Virus record (IMG/VR): IMGVR_UViG_3300037088_001235
Coordinates: 1-25,058 of that record
Length of the DNA stretch: 25,058 nucleotides
DNA from: a virus
Reading direction: 5' to 3' (one strand)
Part shown: positions 1 through 24,735 of the stretch, piece after piece
Layout of the letters: each line of letters begins with the position of its first letter
Numbering within the stretch: the first letter of the stretch is position 1
Translations under genes and position numbers: made by a program
Notes under the pieces: generated by a model
What the model was told of the DNA's origin: nothing
What the model saw: only the letters and a program-made list of their open reading frames with translations
Databases searched by the model: none

Positions 1-3000
1 AGGCATGAAAGGCTCGCTATGGTGGCCCATCGGGATCGTGGTGTATAGCCCGTACCCGAAGTTGTTCGCGACGCCGACGACCGCCGCGACGACGCAGACG
101 GAGGGAAGCTTTGCCTCGATCCGCGCCGGGAGTCCCGGCGTCCGGAAGAATCCCTTCTTGACGCTGTAGGTGAACGTCTTCGAGTCCAGTTTGAAGAACC
201 GGATGCCCGCCGCGTGCGGGCACCGGAGCGTTTCGAACGATGCATAGCTGGCCGGTTCGCCAGCCCAGTAACGCTGGAACTGGAAGCTGCCGGAGGGGAC
301 CACGTCCCCGTCGCTGCCGGGGCCGACGATCTGCGCGCACTCGTACGACCGCCTGCCCGCGTTGTTCGGGTCCGCAGCCTCGTCGTTGAACACCACGAAG
401 TCACCCACCTTGAAGACGCGCGCCGTCGCGGGATTCATCGTACAAGCCACGGTCAACGGATCGGCGTCTTTGCCGACTGCGGCGTCAATGCTGGCCCACA
501 GGTCAACCGCCAACTCGTCCACATAGAACAGCAACATCGTGACCTCGTGCGCGCTCACGATGTTCATATTCCCTGCGTCGTCTGGAAGCACCTGCATGTC
601 GTCCAGAACGAACGTCCCGTAGTCGGAGAGCTTCGGCGTACCGATGACGTCGCCGGGAGGTCCGGTGTCGTAAAGGATCTCTTCCGGCACCGGCGTGGGC
701 ACCATGTCGGCGGGCTTCGGGCCAGCGACGAGATCGTACATGCTGTCCGTGGTCGTGCGTCCCTGCACGTCGATGCTGAAGTCCTTGTTCAGCCGCCAGG
801 ACGCCAGTCGGAACTCTCCGGACCCACTGGGCATATCTGCGGTGGTCATCGAGCAGACCATTCCCGGTTCCGTGTTGAGCGCGAGCACCGTGGTCTTGAA
901 CCCGATCTGGCGCGCCGCTTTCCACTCCGCGGCAGACGTGCCACCCAACTCTTCGCGCAGCCTCGTACTCACGATCCGCGCTGCCTGACTCTTGGTGGAA
1001 GTGCCGGAGAGGTTGACGCTGGACTTCAGGAACATCGGACCCGCGCCGCCGCCGATTTGCGTGGCGTGGTCGATATCGTAGACCGCCACGCTGTTGTTCA
1101 CGAACGCGAAGTCCTGGTCCGCGAAATTGGCTGTGAGGTGATTGAACGACGGCTTGAGCGGAGCCAGTTGAAGGCTGCGGAACAGGATGTTGCCGTCCGT
1201 GAACGCCTCGACCGCGGACGAGTTCTCGCGGACGCCGATGCGGATCTTGCCGAAGGAGAAGGTGTAATAGCCGAGGCAGTTCATCAGCACTTCCTGGAGC
1301 CAGTCCCGGAGTGGCTTCTCCTCCTGGAGCGTGCCACGGAAGGCGAACTGCGTCTCGCTGCCCACGCCGACCATCTTGGTAACGCTGTCGTTGCAGATCG
1401 TGGCAGCGTCGAGCGCGGCTTGCACGTCGAAGTAGGTCTCTGCGGTGTTCAACTGTGCGGTGGTGGCGTCCGCGCCCAGCCGGAGCCCGCGCGCACGGAG
1501 CAGCATGTTGATGGCGATCCAAACCGGATTGGTGAGCGCAGGTCCGTACGTCCGGACGCCGAGGCTGGTCCACACCCAACCGCGCATGCCCTGCTGGACC
1601 GTCGCGATCATCGCGTGGTCGCCAGGCTTCGAGAGTTGGAGCCCCTTCGAGTCGGACCTGCGGATTACGATGAACGCCGTGCCCGCCGCGAAGTTGTCCT
1701 TGTACGTGGAGTTGCCGGAGTAGACCTTGCGGAAGTCGCCGCCCGTGGTGTTGCCGGATTGGTCGAGTGAGAAGAAGTCGGTCGCTCCAGCCGGGTCGTC
1801 GCCCAAGCAGGTCCGGAGGCCGAGGCTATTGGCCGGAAAGCCGTGGTGCGCCTGCCCGTCGAGCGTGTGGCCCACCAGCGTCTCCGCTGTACCGTCGCCG
1901 TCCTTGTCCTCGTAGTGCGTGGGCGTGTACGCCACGAGCGGTCCTTCGCCCACGATGCCCAACGCCTCGTAAAAGTCGCTCTCGTCCCGTCCCGCCGCGA
2001 CCTTGCAATTCACCGGCATGTCGGTGTCGGTGTACACCTCCGCGAGTACTTGGTCGTAAATCGAATCTGCAACGAGCGACACGCTGGTGATGTTCGACCG
2101 GCCAAAGCCCCACACGCCGGTCGAGTTGTCCTTGATCCGGACGCCTTGCGGTTCGGCCAGGATCGCGCCGTAGTACTTCTTCATCCCGTGCGCGAGGCAC
2201 CCGTTCGGCGTGTCGTAGTTCTTATCGCACTTGCTGGCGTCGGCAGTCGGGAAGTGAACCAGATCGAGCGCGCCGTGGCCAGCGTACGGGCACGCTTGGG
2301 AGTTGAACGCCTTCCAGCACGTGCGGGAGATCTTGCGCGTCGGGTAGGGGAGGTTCAGTTCGTATAAGCCGTCCGACGCCGTGATCTTGAACTCCGGACC
2401 AGCATCCAGCGACCAGTTGACGATGTCGCCCTTCCACAGATCCAGCTTGACGCCCTGCCCCACGTGGAACAGCGAGAACGAAATCGCCGCGCGGTACAGG
2501 TCCACGTCGTTCGCGAGGTCGCGCATCACACGGTCGGCGTTCCCGAACGTGAATGCGGCGTCGTCGGACTCGTTGCCCATGCTCTGCGAGATGCCATCGA
2601 AGTCGATCAGGCGTGCTTGGTAGAGTTGCCCGCCCACCGTGCAACGGCGGTCGGACAGATAGATCGCTGGGTAACCGGCCTGGAGAGGCTGGATCTTGAC
2701 CAGCGGGATGACCTGTTGGACCTGGGAGAGCAGAGCGGTCTGCAAACCGCCAGAAGGGAACCGCGTCACCGTCGAGTTGAGCGTGTACGTCGGGTTCCCC
2801 GAGGGGATCTCGACCAGCGTCACGCCGACCGAGCACACCCAATCCGCGACCATCTGCCAGGAGAGAGGCTCGTTGGCGAACCGGCAGGTCGTCGCGGTCG
2901 TCCCGTTGCCGTCGTCGTTCGGCGCGTTGTACGTGAACGCGCCGAGCGGCCCGTACTTCGACTCCCAGAAGTTCCGGAGCGAGAGGCGTTGGGTGTCGTT

Positions 3001-3201
3001 CATCCACGTGCGCCGCACGGTGAACCGGCGCGCGCCGGTGCCCAGCAGGAACCGTTGCTCGATCTTCGCGTTGCCGGTCCCGAACTGGTGGATGGCCACG
3101 TCCGGATGGTTGGCGCGCCCGTACGGGTACTCGGGGATGATCGGGAACGTGCCGGAGGCTGCGATATCCGGAACGGTGATGTTGCCGATTTGGTCAGGCA
3201 T
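1..3201 (-). CDS. Tail-tip/hub protein, fused gpM-, gpL- and gpJ-like domains (C-terminus beyond window)
   Basis: The frame is open from ATG at 3201 to the left edge, about 1067 codons with no stop; an in-frame TGA directly precedes the ATG, so the start is fixed. Residues about 55-135 (RRFTVRRTW ... VEIP) match the pattern of the gpM-like protein two genes upstream. Residues about 165-400 resemble lambda gpL: Cys295, Cys304, Cys325 and Cys334 (around ACPYAGHG and KCDKNYDTPNGC) match the cluster that binds a 4Fe-4S centre in the gpL family. From about residue 560 the sequence has the layout of the gpJ/hub family (RDWLQEVLMNC, then a basic beta-rich stretch and an Ile-Asp-Asp-like segment). 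In lambda these are separate proteins of the tail tip that caps the tube and contacts the host. No strong ribosome site is seen. The domain limits and the gpJ call are inferred; the cysteine motif is directly visible. Confidence 0.85.
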   Translation of the reverse strand, partial: MPDQIGNITVPDIAASGTFPIIPEYPYGRANHPDVAIHQFGTGNAKIEQRFLLGTGARRFTVRRTWMNDTQRLSLRNFWESKYGPLGAFTYNAPNDDGNGTTATTCRFANEPLSWQMVADWVCSVGVTLVEIPSGNPTYTLNSTVTRFPSGGLQTALLSQVQQVIPLVKIQPLQAGYPAIYLSDRRCTVGGQLYQARLIDFDGISQSMGNESDDAAFTFGNADRVMRDLANDVDLYRAAISFSLFHVGQGVKLDLWKGDIVNWSLDAGPEFKITASDGLYELNLPYPTRKISRTCWKAFNSQACPYAGHGALDLVHFPTADASKCDKNYDTPNGCLAHGMKKYYGAILAEPQGVRIKDNSTGVWGFGRSNITSVSLVADSIYDQVLAEVYTDTDMPVNCKVAAGRDESDFYEALGIVGEGPLVAYTPTHYEDKDGDGTAETLVGHTLDGQAHHGFPANSLGLRTCLGDDPAGATDFFSLDQSGNTTGGDFRKVYSGNSTYKDNFAAGTAFIVIRRSDSKGLQLSKPGDHAMIATVQQGMRGWVWTSLGVRTYGPALTNPVWIAINMLLRARGLRLGADATTAQLNTAETYFDVQAALDAATICNDSVTKMVGVGSETQFAFRGTLQEEKPLRDWLQEVLMNCLGYYTFSFGKIRIGVRENSSAVEAFTDGNILFRSLQLAPLKPSFNHLTANFADQDFAFVNNSVAVYDIDHATQIGGGAGPMFLKSSVNLSGTSTKSQAARIVSTRLREELGGTSAAEWKAARQIGFKTTVLALNTEPGMVCSMTTADMPSGSGEFRLASWRLNKDFSIDVQGRTTTDSMYDLVAGPKPADMVPTPVPEEILYDTGPPGDVIGTPKLSDYGTFVLDDMQVLPDDAGNMNIVSAHEVTMLLFYVDELAVDLWASIDAAVGKDADPLTVACTMNPATARVFKVGDFVVFNDEAADPNNAGRRSYECAQIVGPGSDGDVVPSGSFQFQRYWAGEPASYASFETLRCPHAAGIRFFKLDSKTFTYSVKKGFFRTPGLPARIEAKLPSVCVVAAVVGVANNFGYGLYTTIPMGHHSEPFMP

Positions 3202-3672: not shown

Positions 3673-4074
3673 CTAAGCCAACTCGATGAGTTCGATCTGC
3701 ACGTCCGACCTGCCAGGCGTGACCGACTGGTTCCAGTCCGTGTTGAACCGGACGACGTACCTGCCGGTCACCGCCGCGCCGGTCGGGTCGTACGAGAACT
3801 TCGGACTGGCCTCGTACGGGTCGTAAAAGTAGAACGGTTCGTGCGTGCCGTTCCGCGCGTCATAGAAGCTCCGCAGCGCGGCCAACTGGGTTGGAGTAAG
3901 CCGCTTCGTGATGGTCCACTTCTTGCGACTGGTCGCCGCCTGCGCCGACCGCTGCGACTCGCCGTTCCGGTATTCGTTGTCGATGACGGGGTACTCGCGC
4001 GTGTGGACGAACGCGCGGCAGAGGCTGTTGGGCAGCACCGTGGCGGGTGCGGCGTTTGCGACGCTGCCCGGCAT
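3673..4074 (-). CDS. gpM-like minor tail protein, 133 aa
   Basis: The start ATG overlaps the tape measure stop (TAATG), indicating translational coupling. The C-terminal two thirds carries the pattern of small minor tail proteins: KKWTITKRLTPTQLAALRSF, then FYFYDPYE, a RYVVRFNTDW strand, and an ending of the form SDVQIELIEL. In lambda, gpM is added at the tail tip next to the tape measure protein. Length is 133 residues against 109 for gpM. The same pattern recurs in the N-terminal domain of the tail-tip protein two genes downstream, so the two look paralogous. Family call is by pattern and position, not by a search. Confidence 0.75.
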   Translation of the reverse strand: MPGSVANAAPATVLPNSLCRAFVHTREYPVIDNEYRNGESQRSAQAATSRKKWTITKRLTPTQLAALRSFYDARNGTHEPFYFYDPYEASPKFSYDPTGAAVTGRYVVRFNTDWNQSVTPGRSDVQIELIELA

Positions 4075-7000
4075 TACGAAGTCACCAGGCCGGGGCTCAA
4101 TTGGAGGCTGGTCAATTCCCGGCGACCAGCGTTGGACCGCGCCGCGCTCAACGACGCACTCGCGACCACGCGGGGGTTGTTCGCGATGGCCTGTACCGCC
4201 TGCCCCTGGAGCAGGCTGGTGGTCGCAGGACCGTCGAGTTGGATCACCACCGGTCCCGCGCCGGAGGCCACACCGCTGCCGATGCTATCCATCGACGGAA
4301 GCCCGCCCATGCCGGGGAGCGCCGTGCCGTTGGAGTATCCGGGCGATTGGAACAGGGAGCCGCCCGACTGCACCAGATCGAGCGAGTGGACCTGTGCGGG
4401 CATCCCCTTGGTCTGCTGGCCCGTGCTCATGGCGTACAACTGGATCAGGTCACGGATCTGCGCCGTCCGGATCGCCATGTCGAGGTTGCCGCCGTACGAT
4501 TGCTTCGCGGTGTCCACGATCTGCTGCAAGAGTGCTTTGTCGGGGATGTCGACTCCGTACAGATCCTTGATCTTCTGGCGCGCCTTCTCGACCGCGCCTT
4601 TGATAAACAACCGGACCATGCCCGCCGCGAAGCCCGCGATCCCGCCGATCAACGCGCCCAGGGGACCGCCGAACTTCGCGCCAATGAGCGCGCCGCCCGC
4701 CGTCGTCTCCGCGACGCCGATCTTACCGCCGCGCCGGAGACCGTCCATCGCCAGGATCGCGCCGCCAGCCAGCATTGCGCCGCCCTTCATCCCGCCGATG
4801 CCCTTGGCGTCCGCGAGCTTCGTCATATTGCCCGCCTCGTCCATGCTCCAACGCTCGGGCTTGAACCCGATGTTGCCGAGGCTCGTGAGCATCTGCTTCC
4901 AACCGGCGATGCTCTGTTTGAGGTTGGCCAGGACGCCGACGCCAGCCTTTGACGTGACGCCACCACTACCGGTACCCGCGCCGCCACCGGCACCGCCCAG
5001 GATGATCTGCGCCGCCTGCTGCTGGCTCATGCTGCCGCCACCGGGAACAAACGGAGGCGTGCCCCAACCGCCGCCCGCGCCGCCGGGGATCGCGCCGCCA
5101 CCTGTTCCGCCGAACACCGGCACCGCGCCGATGCCCAGCAAGCCACCCAGCCCGCCCAGCATCCCGCCGCTACCGCCAGGCCCGGTCCCGCCACCCGCGA
5201 ACGTGACCTTCTGGCCGGTGAACATCTGCATCAGCATGGCCGCGACGCGCGACGTGACCACGTCCTTGATGGCCGTCAGGAGCGCGGTCTTCAGCGAGTT
5301 ACCGATGGCCTTCCACACCGACTGCGACTTGGTGAGGAGCGCATCGAAGACGCCACCAGCCTGCTGTTTGAGCGAGTCGAAGATCTGCCGGTTGTGCTCG
5401 CGCACCAACTGCGTGGTCCGGTTGGCTGCGTTCTCGCGCGCCGCTTGGATCGCGGCGTCGTTGGCCTCCTCGCCCTGGTCGCGGATATCCTGGCGTTGCT
5501 GGGTCAACTCCGCGATCCGCGCGGTGATCGCATCGGCCTTGTAGCCAAGCCGCTTGAGCGTCAACTCCTCCTCCAGCAGCATGCGCGAGGTGTCCATGTC
5601 GAACAGACTTTGTTTGACCTCATGGACCTTCTCCAGGTAATCGATCTCGATGGAAGCCTTCTGCTGCTCGACCGCGATCTTCTGGCCGAGCGTCTGCGCG
5701 TCCATGCCCTCGACCTGCCGCAGCCGCGCGTCTCGCTCGAAGCCCGCCCGCTGTTCCTCGAACGCGTACACGTCCCGCAGGTGATCCAGGTTCTTCTCGG
5801 CGATTTGGACGTCGTACTCCAAACGCTTCTGGTAGCGGTGCGATTCGAACTCCAACGCCTTCTGACGCGCCTCCTCATCGACCTTGACCTGCTCCGCGAG
5901 CGTCTTCCTGTTCTCCAGCGCGAAGTGGTCCTTGAACGCCTGAAACTTCTTCTGTGCCTGATCGATAATGGCGTCCCACGCCGCCTTGGTAAGCGATACC
6001 TGATGGGACACGCCCTTGTCGTCCACGAACGACGTGCGTCGCGCGATCTCCGTGTTGATCTCCGCGACGTCCTTGGCGTACCCGGTCTTGCCCGCGCCGC
6101 CAGCAGCAATCGCCTGGTCTTTGAAGTACCGCTCGTTCTCGACCTGATGCTTCCGGATCTCCAGTTGGAGTTTGAGCGCCTCCGGGTCGGGCTGGCCCGC
6201 GAGGTGGAGTTTGGGCAGGCCCGCGCCGAACGGAGTATCCTCCTCGCCGGGGATCGCCTTGCGGCCGGAGATGAGTTCGCGGATCGCGGCGTCGTCCATG
6301 CCTCGCTTACGGAGGTCTGCAATCTTGACCTTGCCCGAGACAACGTCCTTGCGGAGCGCGTCCGTCTCCATCTGCTTATAGCGCGCGTCCATCCCCTCCT
6401 TCATGTCGGAGTACTCTTTGTAAATGATCGCGCCCGCCCCGATGATGCCGCCCGCCAGCAGGAACGCGGGGTTGACTGCCATCGCGAGGTTGAGCGCGCC
6501 TTGCGCGAGCGCCCACGCCTTGGTTGCCGCCGTGATCGTGGCGATGATGCCGACGAGGACGAGCGTGCCCTTCCCGAACTTCTCGATGGCGTCCGTGTGC
6601 TCACCGAAGAAGGAAACCATGCCCTTCAGGAGACCGACCACGAGCATCAACTCGCCTTGGAACGCCTTGCCGACGTCCTCCTTGAGATCCTTCATATCGC
6701 GGGAGAGCTTCGCCATCTGACCGTCGAACGTGCCCGCCGCCTCTGCCGCCGCACCGTGGATGTTCTTCGCGGAGTCCACGATGGCGAGATACCGGACCAT
6801 CTTGATCTGGTTCTCGTCAAGGGTCTTACCGTGAAGTTGCGCCTGTAGCCGCGCCACCTCCTCTGCCTTGGCGAGGTCGGGAAAGAGGCTCAGGGACCGG
6901 AGGCCCCGGGACTGGCCCGTCTCGATCGCCAGCATGATCTTCTCGAACGCGTCCGCTGCACTGATCCCTTCCGTGCTTACGGCGGCGGCGTCCTTGGCGA

Positions 7001-7448
7001 TCTTGGCGAGGCTCTGCGCCTTGTCCAGACCGATATCCGCGATGATGAGCTTCTGAACGCTGGTGGTGGCATCCGACGCCGCATAACCCACCTCGCGGAT
7101 CGCGTCGATTGCCTTTTGCGCGGCGGCTGCGCCGTCGCCATGCGACTTGGCCAGCGTGCGCGCGATGGCGACCGCGCGGTCGGCATGCGCCGCTTCCTTC
7201 GCCGCCTCGACGGTCCACTCCTTCGCGAATTCGATTGCCCGCTTGATCGCGTCCGCGAGGAGGTTGCCGGCCAAAGCGCCCTTCGCCATCGAAGCCGTCA
7301 TACCGTCGATACCCTGCGAGGCGGCACGGGCCGACTTGGTGGCTGCGGCTTCGATGCCCGAGAGGTTCGCGTTGACGCTCTTGATGGACTGGTTGGCCTT
7401 GTCCACCTCCACGGTGACGACCAGTTCGATCTGGTTATTGTTTGCCAT
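4074..7448 (-). CDS. Tail tape measure protein, 1124 aa
   Basis: This is the longest complete gene in the tail cluster, directly after the chaperone as in lambda (gpH is 853 aa). Tape measure proteins set tail length and later help deliver DNA across the host envelope. Residues 1-270 are Ala/Lys-rich helices. Residues about 295-345 form paired hydrophobic segments (GTLVLVGIIATITAAT ... AFLLAGGIIGAGAIIY). About 410-690 is a long charged coiled coil. A Gly-rich stretch lies near 765-860, and a Gly-zipper-like hydrophobic segment (GGALIGAKFGGPLGALIGGI) follows towards the C-terminus. At roughly 1.5 angstrom per residue in a helix, the protein would imply a tail of about 150-170 nm. The ATG has only a weak ribosome site, consistent with coupling to the overlapping chaperone reading frame. 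Confidence 0.92.
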   Translation of the reverse strand: MANNNQIELVVTVEVDKANQSIKSVNANLSGIEAAATKSARAASQGIDGMTASMAKGALAGNLLADAIKRAIEFAKEWTVEAAKEAAHADRAVAIARTLAKSHGDGAAAAQKAIDAIREVGYAASDATTSVQKLIIADIGLDKAQSLAKIAKDAAAVSTEGISAADAFEKIMLAIETGQSRGLRSLSLFPDLAKAEEVARLQAQLHGKTLDENQIKMVRYLAIVDSAKNIHGAAAEAAGTFDGQMAKLSRDMKDLKEDVGKAFQGELMLVVGLLKGMVSFFGEHTDAIEKFGKGTLVLVGIIATITAATKAWALAQGALNLAMAVNPAFLLAGGIIGAGAIIYKEYSDMKEGMDARYKQMETDALRKDVVSGKVKIADLRKRGMDDAAIRELISGRKAIPGEEDTPFGAGLPKLHLAGQPDPEALKLQLEIRKHQVENERYFKDQAIAAGGAGKTGYAKDVAEINTEIARRTSFVDDKGVSHQVSLTKAAWDAIIDQAQKKFQAFKDHFALENRKTLAEQVKVDEEARQKALEFESHRYQKRLEYDVQIAEKNLDHLRDVYAFEEQRAGFERDARLRQVEGMDAQTLGQKIAVEQQKASIEIDYLEKVHEVKQSLFDMDTSRMLLEEELTLKRLGYKADAITARIAELTQQRQDIRDQGEEANDAAIQAARENAANRTTQLVREHNRQIFDSLKQQAGGVFDALLTKSQSVWKAIGNSLKTALLTAIKDVVTSRVAAMLMQMFTGQKVTFAGGGTGPGGSGGMLGGLGGLLGIGAVPVFGGTGGGAIPGGAGGGWGTPPFVPGGGSMSQQQAAQIILGGAGGGAGTGSGGVTSKAGVGVLANLKQSIAGWKQMLTSLGNIGFKPERWSMDEAGNMTKLADAKGIGGMKGGAMLAGGAILAMDGLRRGGKIGVAETTAGGALIGAKFGGPLGALIGGIAGFAAGMVRLFIKGAVEKARQKIKDLYGVDIPDKALLQQIVDTAKQSYGGNLDMAIRTAQIRDLIQLYAMSTGQQTKGMPAQVHSLDLVQSGGSLFQSPGYSNGTALPGMGGLPSMDSIGSGVASGAGPVVIQLDGPATTSLLQGQAVQAIANNPRVVASASLSAARSNAGRRELTSLQLSPGLVTS

Positions 7449-8378
7449 GCGCGTTGGTCCGCTCGCGATCCAGCAGGTCCCGTTCGTCGTCCAGGATCAG
7501 CATCGTGTAGAACTCATCTGCCCGGACATCGTCCAGGCCGACATGTATTCCCAGGTTGAGCGCTGCGCGCAGGTCCAGTGCGCGCCGGATGAGCAATCCG
7601 GCCTCAGAAGTCTGCGCCGCGTCGAGTTGGTCTTGGGGGCAGTGGTCGCACCGGCCACCCTCTGGCGCGTCCGGACATAGGCCCGGATCGCACAGGTCGT
7701 CGCGCCGGAGCGCCCAGTGGACGAGGTAACGCAGGGAGGGCCGTTCCGGCCACTCCCCCGCTAAAAACTTGCCTCCCGATCCTCCTGGAAGGATGCGTCG
7801 AGAGCGTCGATGGCGGCTTTGACCGCGATGGCCTGATGGATGATCGGCACGTCTCCGACGTACCCCTCCGTGGCGTCGAGGAGCCTCTTGTACAGGTCGC
7901 CCGCCGCGCGCACGTTGATCGTGAGTTCCTGCCGGTTGAACGGCAGGTCCAGCACGCGAGCGAAGCCGCGCCGGTACTGGTTCACGTCCTTCGCGGACGG
8001 CATCTTGAGGAGGACCTTCGCGGTGGCGCCCAGCACCCGGAGTGTCACGCGGAAGGAGTCGCCCGCCAGGACAACGTCGTCCACATCGCAGGTGGAGAGT
8101 TGCTCGATGACCTTCTGCGCCTCGAACGCATCGACTTCAGGTCCCTCCTCGGTGCGGATCTTCGCCAGCATCGCGGCGTCGATATCCTCACCGTTCGGGA
8201 TCGTCGTCTCAGAGATCCCGCGCCCGAGTTGCTTCACGATCACCTTGCGGCGGCGCTGGCGTTCGACCCACTCGTCGTCGGACGGGAAGCGGGTCCGGAC
8301 GGTCTTGACGCCGTCCGGTCCCCGAAGTTGGATGGCGACCGGCCTGGTCGCGTCAAAAACAGGAGCGTTGCTGTCCAT
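7435..8378 (-). CDS. Tail assembly chaperone, long -1 frameshift product (G-T type fusion), about 314 aa
   Basis: The 205-residue chaperone ends AGT TTT TAG at 7761. The -1 frame continues from TTA (7764) without a stop to TAA at 7435, adding 109 residues and overlapping the tape measure start by 14 bases. That downstream frame has no ATG, GTG or TTG in its first half, so it is unlikely to start by itself. Slipping back one base on TTT re-pairs perfectly with TTT and bypasses the stop. A stable hairpin follows. This is the arrangement of lambda gpG/gpGT, where a minor frameshifted product binds the tape measure protein through its T part and recruits tube protein. The extension has a Cys cluster (CDPGLC ... 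GGRCDHC) and ends in a charged helix, VRADEFYTMLILDDERDLLD. Coordinates are the span; the join is at about 7765. Confidence 0.75.
7734..7767 (-). promoter_or_regulatory. Programmed -1 ribosomal frameshift signal (TTT TAG slip site plus hairpin)
   Basis: On the minus strand the sequence reads AGT TTT TAG, with five T at the 0-frame stop. Three bases after the stop a hairpin begins: GGGAG (7757-7753), a bulged T, GGCCG (7751-7747), loop GAA, then CGGCC and CTCCC ending at 7734. This gives ten base pairs with one bulge, at the short spacing typical of stimulatory structures. The usual tandem heptamer is absent, because AGT cannot re-pair well on AAG. A P-site slip on TTT with the stop in the A site is therefore the likelier mechanism. 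Frameshifting itself is inferred. Confidence 0.65.
7761..8378 (-). CDS. Tail assembly chaperone, short product (gpG type), 205 aa
   Basis: ATG at 8378 has AAAGGAAC about ten bases upstream. The protein is soluble and mainly helical, starting MDSNAPVFDATRPVAIQLRG and ending EDREASF at the frameshift site. It lies between tail tube and tape measure genes, where siphophages encode the chaperone that coats the tape measure protein before the tube polymerises around it. Lambda gpG has 140 residues, so this version is longer, with a basic RQRRRKVIVKQLGRG segment near residues 40-54 and a second helical half. Sequence similarity within this family is weak, so the call rests on position plus the frameshifted extension. 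Confidence 0.8.
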   Translation of the reverse strand: MDSNAPVFDATRPVAIQLRGPDGVKTVRTRFPSDDEWVERQRRRKVIVKQLGRGISETTIPNGEDIDAAMLAKIRTEEGPEVDAFEAQKVIEQLSTCDVDDVVLAGDSFRVTLRVLGATAKVLLKMPSAKDVNQYRRGFARVLDLPFNRQELTINVRAAGDLYKRLLDATEGYVGDVPIIHQAIAVKAAIDALDASFQEDREASF

Positions 8379-8393: not shown

Positions 8394-9434
8394 TTACTGG
8401 CAGATCTGATCTACCGCACACTTGCCGACCGCCGTCAGAATGCCGTTGGTGACGTGGTACATCGGCAGGCACTCGACTGCGACGGTGAGAATCTGGTCCG
8501 TCTCCGCGATCTCAACCACCGAGTAGGTGATTTGCTGCCACGTCAACTGGAGCGAGTTGCTCACGTCGTACGCCAGCGTGACGACCGCCGTGCCGGTCGT
8601 CTGCGCCTTGAGCTTCGTGTACTCGTCCGATCCGTTCATGAACCGCGCGACGAACTTCAGGTTGCCCGCACGGTTGCCGAACTCCAGCCGCCCGCGAATC
8701 GCGCCGGTGGTCCCGTCGCCCGCCGTCTGGAAGCCGGAGCCCGGGAAGAAGCCCGCATCCATCCGGATGTTGTTCTTCCAGCCAGTCTCCAGGGAGACGA
8801 TGTTCTTGTTGGTCACATAGTCGACGCCGTTGATCGACAGCGTCAGCGAAGCGGACGGCAGGAGCTTCTCAGCGGTCGCGGCGGGCATCGTGATGCCGGT
8901 CGCGGTGTCGATCATCTTGCCGGAGCCGACCAGTTCGACGCTGATCTTGCTGTTGGCGCGGCCAGGCCCGGAGCCAACGCTGATCTGGAAGGACTCGATG
9001 GCCATCCCGACCGCTTGCCGGTCAACCACCACGCCGCCGCCAGGCCGGATCTGCTCGACGTACGAGAGGTACGGCAGGTCTGCGGCGTCCCCAGCGGAGG
9101 GGATAAGCGGAGTGCAGGTGTACACGTACGGCCCCGCGCCGGTCTTGACGACCTTCCCCAAGGCAAAACAGACCGCCCACGCGCCAATCTCCGCGCCCAG
9201 ATATTTCTCGAGGGTGACACCCACGTCCCACGCCGTCTTGAACGTGACGGTCGGGAATTCGTGGCCCTTGCCGTACTCGTCGGCGTCGTTTTCCGTGGCA
9301 AGCTTCGGGTTCGCGAGAGAGGCGTTCAACTTGCTGAAGCGCCACATATCGGCTGCGACGCTGGCGGTCACAATGTCGGCCTGCTTCTTCTTCCCGAAGC
9401 AGACCAGAACTTCCTGTAGCCTAGTCGTGGACAT
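8394..9434 (-). CDS. Major tail tube protein, 346 aa
   Basis: ATG at 9434 follows a strong GAGGAGGTAA ribosome site. The protein is beta-rich throughout, with no membrane segment, as expected for the tube subunit that stacks in hexameric rings around the tape measure protein. Typical features are an N-terminal segment ending in a Trp-Arg-Phe motif (SVAADMWRFSKL), a central domain with DRQAVGMAIESFQISVG, a Gly-rich NNIRMDAGFFPGSGF stretch, and a C-terminal ITYSVVEIAETDQILTVAVE strand. It is larger than lambda gpV (246 aa), which suggests an inserted or extra surface domain. It is followed by the chaperone gene 15 bases downstream. The assignment is from order and composition. Confidence 0.8.
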   Translation of the reverse strand: MSTTRLQEVLVCFGKKKQADIVTASVAADMWRFSKLNASLANPKLATENDADEYGKGHEFPTVTFKTAWDVGVTLEKYLGAEIGAWAVCFALGKVVKTGAGPYVYTCTPLIPSAGDAADLPYLSYVEQIRPGGGVVVDRQAVGMAIESFQISVGSGPGRANSKISVELVGSGKMIDTATGITMPAATAEKLLPSASLTLSINGVDYVTNKNIVSLETGWKNNIRMDAGFFPGSGFQTAGDGTTGAIRGRLEFGNRAGNLKFVARFMNGSDEYTKLKAQTTGTAVVTLAYDVSNSLQLTWQQITYSVVEIAETDQILTVAVECLPMYHVTNGILTAVGKCAVDQICQ

Positions 9435-19833: not shown

Positions 19834-21123
19834 TCACTGGCTCACCGGGTGAGCCTGCTCCACTCCTGCCACCAGATCATCGAACGCGCGTCCGGACTGC
19901 TGGTGCCGCGCGGCCTGCCCCGTGAACGCCTGCCAACGCCGGATGATCACGTCGCAGTACTTCGGGTCCAACTCGATGACGCGCGCCTGCCGCCCCATCT
20001 TTTCGCAGGCGATGATCGTCGTCCCGCTCCCGCCGAACGGGTCCAGGATCGTGTCGCGCGACTTGCTGTTGTTCCGGAGGGCGCGCTCGACCAACTCCAC
20101 CGGCTTCATTGTCGGGTGCTCGCGGTTGGCAGCGGGCCGGTTGATCTGCCACGTGTCTCCCTGGTTACGGTCGCCGCACCAATAGTGCGTCCCCCCCTCG
20201 CGCCAGCCGTACACAATCGGTTCGTACTGGTGGCGGTAGTCTCCCCAGCCCAGAGTGAAGTGGTTCTTCACCCAGATGATGATGCCCGACCAGTGGCCTC
20301 CGGCGTCCAGGAACGCCTGCCGGATCGTGTGCAACTCCGACGAGGACATGCAGATGTACACCGCGCCCTTGCAGACGGCGAGCATGTTCGCGGAGGCGTC
20401 CTTCAGGAAATCGTAGAACTTGGACCCGAGCGCGTCGTTCTTGATCTTGAGCTTCTTCTCGGTGCGACCCTCGTAGTTGATGTTGTACGGCGGGTCGGTG
20501 AACACCATGTCGGCCAAGCCGCCGGCCAGAACTTTTTCCACATCCGCCAGGACCGTGGCATCGCCGCACAGTAGCCGGTGCTCGCCAAGCACCCACACAT
20601 CGCCCGCCACCGTGGTCGCCGTCGCCTCGGGCTCCGGCGCGTCGTCGTCGTCCGTCAATCCGGTCTTGGACTGGTCGCCGGTCAGGATCTCCTCAATCTC
20701 GTCGTCGCTGAACCCAACGAGGTCGAGATCGAAGTCGTCCTCCTTCAAGGACTCCAACTCGACGCGCAGCATGTCCTCGTCCCATCCGGCACTCAGAGCC
20801 AGGCGGTTGTCTGCGAGGACGAGCGCGCGTCGTTGGGTGTCGCTGAGATGGTCCAGGACGATGACCGGCACCTCGGCCATGTTGAGCTTCCTGGCAGCAG
20901 CCAGGCGCGCGTGGCCAGCGATGATGATGCCGTCCGCGCCGACCAGGATCGGATTCGTCCAGCCGAACTCCGCGATGCTGGCCGCGACCTGCGCGACCTG
21001 CTCCTCGGTGTGGGTGCGCGCGTTGCGGGCGTACGGGATGAGTTTGTCGAGCGGCCAGAACTGAACGAGGAGGTTGCGAAGGCGATCGCCCAACGTCGTG
21101 TTATCGATGGCTGTGGTTTTCAT
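19834..21123 (-). CDS. ParB-like domain fused to DNA methyltransferase (DPPY type), 429 aa
   Basis: Residues about 20-110 are a ParB/Srx-like domain: PYARNARTHTEEQV, SIAEFG ... PILV, and the signature IIAGHARLAAARKL (67-80). Residues 175-400 are an amino-methyltransferase of beta order, with catalytic motif IV DPPYN at 210-214 and the AdoMet-binding motif I DPFGGSGTT at 361-369. The NREHPTMKP segment precedes motif I as in phage adenine methylases. It would methylate an exocyclic amino group, probably adenine N6. The role may be protection against host restriction or marking DNA for packaging; this is inference. ATG at 21123 has GGAGAGG upstream. It is a clear paralogue of the methyltransferase two genes upstream. 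Confidence 0.92.
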   Translation of the reverse strand: MKTTAIDNTTLGDRLRNLLVQFWPLDKLIPYARNARTHTEEQVAQVAASIAEFGWTNPILVGADGIIIAGHARLAAARKLNMAEVPVIVLDHLSDTQRRALVLADNRLALSAGWDEDMLRVELESLKEDDFDLDLVGFSDDEIEEILTGDQSKTGLTDDDDAPEPEATATTVAGDVWVLGEHRLLCGDATVLADVEKVLAGGLADMVFTDPPYNINYEGRTEKKLKIKNDALGSKFYDFLKDASANMLAVCKGAVYICMSSSELHTIRQAFLDAGGHWSGIIIWVKNHFTLGWGDYRHQYEPIVYGWREGGTHYWCGDRNQGDTWQINRPAANREHPTMKPVELVERALRNNSKSRDTILDPFGGSGTTIIACEKMGRQARVIELDPKYCDVIIRRWQAFTGQAARHQQSGRAFDDLVAGVEQAHPVSQ

Positions 21124-21723: not shown

Positions 21724-23298
21724 TTACGACGCCTTGCGCTTGCGAGGCCCGTAGTGAGGGTTAGGCCCGTTGTGTTTGATGGCGCGCGAGTCCTGCGCCT
21801 TCGGATTCAAAGCCTGTTCGATGGGTACGCCGCGCGCCGCCGCGACCGACTGGAACGTGGCTGTCTCGTCGCCCGCGCCCAACAGCAACGGCGTCTCGCC
21901 GGTCAGGTTCCAGATGCGATGAAGGATCACATCGCAATACCCCGCCGAGAGTTCACACCCGTACGCGGCGCGATCCAGCAACGCCGCCGCCGCCATCGTG
22001 GTTCCGCTCCCCATGAAAGGATCGAACACGATGTCGCCCTCGTCGGAGAACGCCAGCAGGAAGAACTGCACGAGCGCGCGGGGGAACGGAGCCGAGTGCG
22101 TCCCCTGCGACGACTCGCTCTTGACCTCGACCACGTTCGACGGGCGCGCAACGCCTGCGAATCGGCCATCCGAATCCGACAGGCTGTTGCGCGACCGTTG
22201 CCAGGCATTCTGATTCTTGCCGCCATCCGCTGCTGCGCCACGCGGTCCAGTGCCCAGCAATCCACTTCCGGACGTTGATTTCGGGTTACCCGGACTGTAA
22301 TCGAAGCAATCCTCCGACTCGTGTCCGACCCGCTTGGGCCGGAACTTGATGGTCTGCTGGCGGCAGAAGTGGAACACTGGTTCCCATGCGTTTTTGAAGC
22401 GGTTGTTCCAGCCGCCAGGAACGCCGTTGTCTGTCTTACGCCAGCAGAACTCGTCCACGAACCGCCAGGACCACGCGCGGCGGTGCGCGATAACCAGATC
22501 CTTCACGTACAGATTCCGCTCGCCCTCGTCGGCGTGCTCCTTGATGTTCAGGAAATAGGAGCCATCCTCCGCGAGCACCGACGCGATGTTCGTGGCCACG
22601 TCCTTGTACCAAGCCACATACTCGTCCGGAGGGACCGGCTTGAACCCGCTGGTCGAGTCGTACTCCCTCTGTGTGGCATACGGAGGCGACGTGATGCAGA
22701 CGTTGGGGCGCGCGTCGTCCAGGAGTTTCAGAACGACCGTCAAGTCGCGGCAGTCACCGCAGATCAGGCGGTGGGGCCCGATGGTCCACCGGTCACCAGG
22801 CCGGGTAACTGGGTTGGCTGGCTCCGCGGGAACCGCTTCCTCCTCCATGTCCGGGCTGGACTGCGGTTCGTCGCCCGCCAGGAGATCCTCCAACTCGTCG
22901 TCGGAGAAACCCACGAGCGCGAGGTCCACGCCGTCCTGCTCCAGGTCGTGCAACTCCGCGGCAAGGATCTTCTCGTCCCACCCTGCGTTGAGCGCGAGCT
23001 TGTTGTCCGCGATGACGTACGCGCGTCGTTGAGTCTCGCTGAGGTGATCCAGGACGACGACTGGCACCTCAGCGAGTCCCAACTTGCGAGCAGCCAGGAG
23101 ACGACCGTGGCCCGCGATGATCCCGGCGTTACTATCTACCAGGATCGGCGCGTTGAAACCGAACTCCGCGATGGATGCGGCGATCTGCGCCACCTGCTCC
23201 GGCGAGTGCGTCCGCGCGTTCTTCGCGTACGGCACCAGCCGGTCGGTAGGCCACAGTTCGATGCGCCGCGCCATCGCGGGCGCGATTAGAGAGTTCAT
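21724..23298 (-). CDS. ParB-like domain fused to DNA methyltransferase (SPPY type), 524 aa
   Basis: The N-terminal ParB-like domain (PYAKNARTHSPEQV, IIAGHGRLLAARKL at 60-73, ADNKLALNAGWDE) is closely similar to that of the 429-aa protein. The methyltransferase part has motif IV TSPPY at 203-207 and motif I DPFMGSGTT at 426-434, beta order. SPPY is the usual form in N4-cytosine methylases, so its target may differ from that of its DPPY paralogue; this is inference. A long insert (about 320-400, Gly/Ser/Asn-rich) separates the motifs, likely target recognition. ATG 23298 lies 11 bases after the tRNA-Thr CCA end; ATG 23274 is an alternative. Neither has a ribosome site. Frame extension further upstream is only the translated tRNA. 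Confidence 0.9.
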   Translation of the reverse strand: MNSLIAPAMARRIELWPTDRLVPYAKNARTHSPEQVAQIAASIAEFGFNAPILVDSNAGIIAGHGRLLAARKLGLAEVPVVVLDHLSETQRRAYVIADNKLALNAGWDEKILAAELHDLEQDGVDLALVGFSDDELEDLLAGDEPQSSPDMEEEAVPAEPANPVTRPGDRWTIGPHRLICGDCRDLTVVLKLLDDARPNVCITSPPYATQREYDSTSGFKPVPPDEYVAWYKDVATNIASVLAEDGSYFLNIKEHADEGERNLYVKDLVIAHRRAWSWRFVDEFCWRKTDNGVPGGWNNRFKNAWEPVFHFCRQQTIKFRPKRVGHESEDCFDYSPGNPKSTSGSGLLGTGPRGAAADGGKNQNAWQRSRNSLSDSDGRFAGVARPSNVVEVKSESSQGTHSAPFPRALVQFFLLAFSDEGDIVFDPFMGSGTTMAAAALLDRAAYGCELSAGYCDVILHRIWNLTGETPLLLGAGDETATFQSVAAARGVPIEQALNPKAQDSRAIKHNGPNPHYGPRKRKAS

Positions 23299-23309
23299 GG
23301 CGTTGTGAA

Positions 23310-23385
23310 TGGAGCCGGGAGCCGGAATCGAACCGGCAACCGCTTGATTACGAATCGAGTGCTCTGCCAGTTGAGCTACCCCGGC
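23310..23385 (-). tRNA. tRNA-Thr (anticodon CGT)
   Basis: This is a 76-base cloverleaf with encoded CCA. The acceptor GCCGGGG pairs with TCCCGGC (last pair G-T), the D arm is GCTC/GAGC, the anticodon loop is TTCGTAA, the variable loop has five bases and the T arm is GCCGG-TTCGATT-CCGGC. The anticodon stem CTCGA/TCAAG has one C-A mismatch in the middle. Anticodon CGT reads ACG (Thr). Its 3' end is 11 bases from the methyltransferase start, so both probably share a transcript. Confidence 0.93.
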
Positions 23386-23456
23386 TTTCGGATGCTCGCT
23401 TCCGCTGGCGAAAATGATTGAACTCTCGCCGGATCGAGCGCACAATCGAGATCACG

Positions 23457-24658: not shown

Positions 24659-24735
24659 TGGTGGGCCCGACAGAACTCGAATCTGTGACCTTCTGCGTGT
24701 CAAGCAGACGCTCTAACCAACTGAGCTACGGGCCC
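24659..24735 (-). tRNA. tRNA-Val (anticodon GAC)
   Basis: This is a 77-base cloverleaf with encoded CCA. The acceptor GGGCCCG pairs with CGGGCCC, the D arm is GCTC/GAGC, the anticodon stem TCTGC/GCAGA encloses loop TTGACAC, and the T arm is ACAGA-TTCGAGT-TCTGT. All stems pair fully. Anticodon GAC reads GTC/GTT (Val). Confidence 0.95.

Follow-up and report, generated by a model that had tools for sequence, protein, structure and literature searches.

In this study, comparison of a phage tail module with its relatives led us to conclude that two of its genes are probably expressed through a G/GT-type programmed −1 frameshift of the lambda-type tail module, in which a decayed A_AAU_UUU heptamer would act as a U_UUU tetramer and the adjoining UAG stop codon would not be required. 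The window, that is, the whole stretch of DNA analysed (25,058 nucleotides of IMG/VR record IMGVR_UViG_3300037088_001235), carries two overlapping open reading frames (ORFs) between the presumed tail tube and tape-measure genes, with the second ORF in the −1 frame of the first. Conserved frames, a conserved slip site, coding constraint and constraint on a downstream hairpin are all observed in the sequences. An earlier note had proposed a probable −1 frameshift in the tail chaperone gene, with a slip that seemed to depend on a stop codon occupying the A site; the programmed signal is now backed by conservation in 134 relatives, and the need for the stop is not supported, given the relatives with sense codons between the site and the stop. 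The features of this region are as follows.

8394 to 9434, minus strand: presumed tail tube protein gene upstream of G, 346 aa, assigned by position.
7761 to 8378, minus strand: ORF of a G-like tail assembly chaperone in the 0 frame, 205 aa, assigned by its position between the presumed tail tube and tape-measure genes, with 134 relatives.
7764 to 7770, minus strand: slip site A_AGU_UUU, a degenerate A_AAU_UUU, whose U_UUY tetramer (7764 to 7767) is the invariant core in degenerate relatives.
7761 to 7763, minus strand: 0-frame stop UAG, directly 3′ of the slip site and adjacent to it in most relatives.
7734 to 7757, minus strand: bulged hairpin of 10 pairs, with codons GGG GAG and CCC TCC kept beyond the amino acids.
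7435 to 7767, minus strand: T-like −1 frame of 110 codons plus the stop at 7437–7435, with four conserved cysteines, most likely made only as the G-T fusion.
4074 to 7448, minus strand: ORF of the tape measure protein, 1124 aa, assigned by length and position, its start overlapping the end of T.

The 0 frame of G terminates with GCA AGT TTT TAG, the stop lying at 7763–7761, and the −1 frame, counted from TTT at 7767–7765, remains open for 110 codons, of which 109 lie beyond the re-paired TTT, ending at 7437–7435 and overlapping the tape-measure start at 7448. The frame ends given earlier (AGT TTT TAG, then a 109-codon open −1 frame up to the tape measure) were correct, as was the statement that the first half of the −1 frame has no start codon, since the earliest ATG, GTG or TTG in T is a TTG at codon 58. 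The slip site A_AGU_UUU departs from the strict tandem heptamer X_XXY_YYZ, AGU being mismatched when re-paired on AAG, and has the make-up of a Z_ZZN (U_UUY) tetramer, with UUUU at 7767–7764 and a hairpin 6 nt downstream. More than 6 kb of the window recurs as an identical copy in a second contig of 45 kb (L002/L082).

Relatives of G and T were collected from IMG/VR contigs and bacterial (Bryobacterales) genomes. After duplicate removal, 136 loci yielded both genes, with T in the −1 frame of G in 135, and 134 were analysed after L329 and L345 had been left out, the latter because the stop of its G gene could not be located. L329 was considered as a frame-0 relative and dropped, as an extra C inside T (CCCTCCCCTGCGG) marks an indel or assembly error; this C lies in a C run of T at ~4970–5060 of an Acidobacteria contig and may reflect either an assembly error or a decaying prophage. 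All 134 relatives keep T in the −1 frame of G, and this universal relation strongly disfavours a sequencing indel in the window. The earlier note had named such an indel, or loss of the −1 frame in relatives, as evidence against frameshifting; the contig copy is identical and the frame relation holds in 134/134. That the two frames differ only through transcriptional slippage on the T run, or through a sequencing or assembly indel, is exceedingly improbable: there are five consecutive T on the coding strand at the site, a run that is short for polymerase slippage, and CCCAAAC replaces it in most relatives, while the indel is opposed by the universal −1 relation and the identical second contig.

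The constraint on the −1 frame bears on how T is translated. Over the 33 codons around and after the slip in 61 diverse relatives, the nonsynonymous/synonymous ratio (a dN/dS-like ratio) was 0.08 in the −1 frame versus 3.9 and 5.0, and the same stretch contained 0 stops in the −1 frame versus 27 and 37 in the other frames; judged from these substitutions, purifying selection acts strongly on the −1 frame just past the slip. In the window, this constrained stretch precedes any possible T start codon, and thus T would be translated continuously from the junction. The first in-frame start codon of T is scattered over positions 1–105 among the 134 relatives, and 125 of them have no T start codon upstream of the slip. 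Independent initiation of T was rejected on these start-codon positions together with the −1-frame coding constraint. Separate production of T without frameshifting, with ribosomes reinitiating or initiating internally past the G stop, could draw on the TTG at codon 58 of the window T and on the translational coupling that is common among overlapping phage genes, but we consider it very improbable, because the amino acids are strongly conserved from the slip site across the start-less codons of the window, the start positions vary among relatives, and the junction itself is without a start. Moreover, five relatives (e.g., L029, L054, and L133) have a −1-frame stop immediately 5′ of CCC AAA, so that the −1 frame reaches back no further than the two heptamer codons and the shift is confined to C_CCA_AAC.

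The junctions of all 134 relatives hold one of four slippery sequences, CCCAAAC (81), AAATTTY (29), GGGAAAC (6), or a U_UUY tetramer behind a poorly re-pairing first codon (18/134, the window included), so that 116/134 carry a strict tandem heptamer. Of 7,943 other in-phase positions in these genes, just 2 have a strict heptamer. No site lacking both heptamer and U_UUY was found among the 134 relatives. The window had earlier been contrasted with tandem-heptamer sites lying away from the stop; this contrast does not extend to its family, as this very position is occupied by a tandem heptamer in most relatives (CCCAAAC 81, AAATTTY 29, GGGAAAC 6). In place of the TTTTTAG of the window, most relatives have CCCAAAC, and U_UUY is kept in the 18 degenerate relatives. 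In a tree of G and T built with the site removed, the nearest relatives of the window have AAATTTT (0.11 changes per column), and the degenerate state requires at least 8 changes, 6 of them forced by supported branches. On this phylogenetic evidence, the A_AGT_TTT of the window is a decayed A_AAT_TTT. Every degenerate site retains U_UUY, which is partly a matter of class definition. The most economical interpretation is repeated decay of the first heptamer codon, with the UUY tetramer sufficing for the slip. Among −1 tetramers in Escherichia coli, U_UU.C and U_UU.U rank next after A_AA.G in slip-proneness, and they slip only with a strong downstream stimulator (PMC4066793). Annotation pipelines restricted to X_XXY_YYZ would overlook the 18/134 decayed sites.

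Sense codons intervene between site and stop in 32 of the 116 strict-heptamer relatives. The stop lies one codon later in 30 of them (22 CCCAAAC, 6 GGGAAAC, and 2 AAATTTT, the last being L053/L159) and L258 and L342 (both AAATTTT) have it eight codons further on. L073 (~2995–3046) has the same AAGTTTT as the window, followed by CAA, with the 0-frame stop 14 codons on and 13 sense codons in between; it is a single contig and represents a natural test of stop-independence. A shifty stop lies directly 3′ of the slipping codon and is required for the slip; here, the stop adjoins the site in the window and is not adjacent in L073 and the four AAATTTT relatives. As the position of the stop varies among relatives, the stop does not appear to be required in the family. 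A link between heptamer decay and the adjacent stop was also tried and rejected, because 17/18 degenerate and 25/29 intact AAATTTY sites have the stop adjacent, and there is no association (Fisher p = 0.64).

We nevertheless weighed stop-dependent P-site slippage in the window, whereby tRNA-Phe would shift from T_TTT to TTT while UAG awaits release factor 1 and UUA would be read thereafter. In favour of this mechanism, re-pairing in the P site is perfect, 17/18 degenerate relatives hold TTY right before the stop, and L230 keeps TTY there although the base 5′ of AGT is also altered. Precedents include barley yellow dwarf, groundnut rosette and pea enation mosaic viruses, with UAG at or next to the site (PMC4737148), and potato virus M, whose AAAAUGA is described in the same source as a −1 shifty stop with P-site slippage. 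In contrast, L073 has AAGTTTT CAA without an adjacent stop, intact-heptamer relatives have the stop 1 or 8 codons away, and the hairpin would sit just 3 nt beyond the A-site codon. When the HIV heptamer was followed by an introduced stop, −1 shifting fell in both bacteria and mammalian cells because the release factor competes (PMC4373837). Considering both sides, we regard a stop-dependent slip as unlikely. With 6 nt between TTT and the first pair of the hairpin, the spacing also fits TTT rather than TAG as the A-site codon.

A contribution of the stop in the window is nonetheless conceivable because first-codon (AGT) re-pairing is lost there, and a stop-assisted slip is compatible with our data because both routes yield the same protein. 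In pea enation mosaic virus and potato virus M, slippage benefits from an adjoining stop (PMC4737148), and the published stop effects would fit a modulating role by analogy. The adjacent UAG may modulate the ratio of products and would not be required for the slip. We offer only as a tentative and rather doubtful suggestion that the family moved repeatedly from a tandem two-tRNA slip (CCCAAAC, AAATTTY) to a single tRNA-Phe on U_UUY with the stop in the A site, where a competing release factor would set the G:GT ratio of the window. The more than 130 orthologous sites range from strict heptamers through to decayed tetramers, and 0, 1, 8 or 13 sense codons lie between site and stop; this natural series would allow the roles of P-site re-pairing and the adjacent stop to be measured in a single genetic context.

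RNA folding confirmed the ten-pair hairpin that had been noticed three bases past the stop. It occupies 7757–7734 as GGGAG-(U)-GGCCG-GAA-CGGCC-CUCCC, with one bulged U, and starts 3 nt past UAG and 6 nt past UUU. Taken alone, the window hairpin is not exceptional, with z = −1.5 in dinucleotide shuffles and p of about 0.14 in synonymous-codon shuffles. Across 61 relatives, the downstream 50 nt were more stable than synonymous-codon shuffles at p < 0.05 in 24, with ~3 expected, and the median z was −1.4. The Gly codon of the hairpin 5′ arm is GGG in 49/53 sequences versus 8/51 at another Gly further along the gene (p = 3e-16); the Glu codon of this arm is GAG in 52/54 versus 18/50 at a later Glu (p = 9e-12). 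GGGGAG follows AAATTTY after a spacer of 5 nt and CCCAAAC after one of 8 nt. All eight core pairs are complementary in 23/61 relatives and the lower five in 34/61, and a sister clade (GATGATCCGTC) disrupts the lower stem. We consider the structural support for the hairpin to be moderate, as it comes mainly from synonymous-codon conservation. In L258 and L342, ~8 extra codons lie between AAATTTT and the hairpin region, with both frames open, and the spacer to the GGGGAG-equivalent position is 26 nt; the stimulator there must therefore differ. A second element, AGGAGGAT at 7771–7795 (minus strand), ~10 nt 5′ of the slip site, looks like a dnaX-type stimulatory Shine-Dalgarno sequence. As a stimulator, this AGGAGG was rejected, because 0/61 relatives exceed synonymous shuffles and it is therefore explained by the encoded residues.

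We propose the following as the most probable model for the expression of the two proteins. Most ribosomes would terminate at UAG and release chaperone G, and a minor fraction would slip back one base at A_AGU_UUU and add 109 more codons, resulting in G-T. The hairpin 6 nt downstream would aid the slip. tRNA-Phe would re-pair perfectly from UUU to U_UUU and the preceding Ser codon would re-pair poorly, so that the site would behave as the known U_UUY tetramer type. The slip would most likely occur with UUU in the A site or while UUU translocates, and the adjacent UAG would terminate the unshifted protein and perhaps tune the ratio. That the ribosome slips here, how often it does so and which codon then occupies the A site are what we infer.

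A G/GT-type frameshift is expected in a long-tailed phage; Xu, Hendrix and Duda reportedly described in 2004 counterparts of the G/GT −1 frameshift in long-tailed dsDNA phages. The window shares with lambda G/GT (PMC5009743) the gene order tube, G, T, tape measure, a −1 shift near the end of G, and T as a fusion. Its head and tail module is also lambda-type, with a GpA terminase, a lambda-family portal, and an S49 peptidase as the head genes in common, and a gpE-like capsid and a minor tail protein also present. In contrast to lambda, its G and T have no detectable sequence or fold similarity to known chaperones, its site A_AGU_UUU_UAG contains no strict heptamer, and its T has four conserved cysteines. 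Among viral sites adjoining a stop, groundnut rosette virus has AAAUUUU next to UAG with a ~5-nt spacer to a stem-loop, and GGAUUUU of pea enation mosaic virus likewise combines imperfect P-site re-pairing with perfect UUU (PMC4737148). However, these umbravirus and luteovirus sites belong to plant RNA viruses with eukaryotic ribosomes and unrelated genes. Potato virus M AAAAUGA (Gramstat 1994, cited in PMC4737148) resembles the window in a −1 tRNA slip on a homopolymer before a stop, and differs in that, reportedly, no sense codon could take the place of its stop, whereas relatives without an adjacent stop exist here. Z_ZZN (U_UUY) sites of the IS1 and IS3 families and E. coli reporters are similar in that only the UUY tRNA re-pairs well and strong downstream structure is needed (PMC4066793); unlike those tetramers, the window tetramer adjoins a stop and goes back to a tandem heptamer of its own gene family.

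Searches of Pfam, PHROGs and PDB with the G and T sequences gave no match, and their fairly confident models (mean pLDDT 85 and 84) showed nothing significant against PDB and BFVD folds; the tape measure ORF (4074–7448) and the presumed tube gene (8394–9434) had no profile match. G/T chaperone proteins diverge widely. Because neither sequence nor fold places G and T in a known family, their chaperone identity rests on gene order and synteny, from which a G/T chaperone role may be proposed. G and T are a previously undescribed protein family. Cysteines C26, C31, C40 and C43 of T (C-x4-C-x8/9-C-x2-C; T at 7438–7767, minus strand) are invariant in 27 aligned T domains and possibly form a zinc-binding knuckle in the −1-encoded extension. 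In L159, which is outside this alignment, Phe replaces the first cysteine.

No relatives of G or T were found in the INPHARED phage set. Relatives occur at 34 bacterial-genome loci, nearly all from Bryobacterales or other Acidobacteriota, and for this reason the host of the IMGVR_UViG_3300037088_001235 phage is probably a soil bacterium of the order Bryobacterales (Acidobacteriota). Upstream of the terminase, two adjoining ORFs (19834–21123 and 21724–23445, minus strand) each have a ParB_N-like N-terminal domain fused to an N6/N4 DNA methylase. Two tRNA genes, Thr-CGU and Val-GAC, lie on the minus strand at 23310–23385 and 24659–24735. The ORF listed at 21724–23445 begins by reading through the first of them (GVAQLAEH...GSIPAPGS), and its true start therefore lies further downstream.
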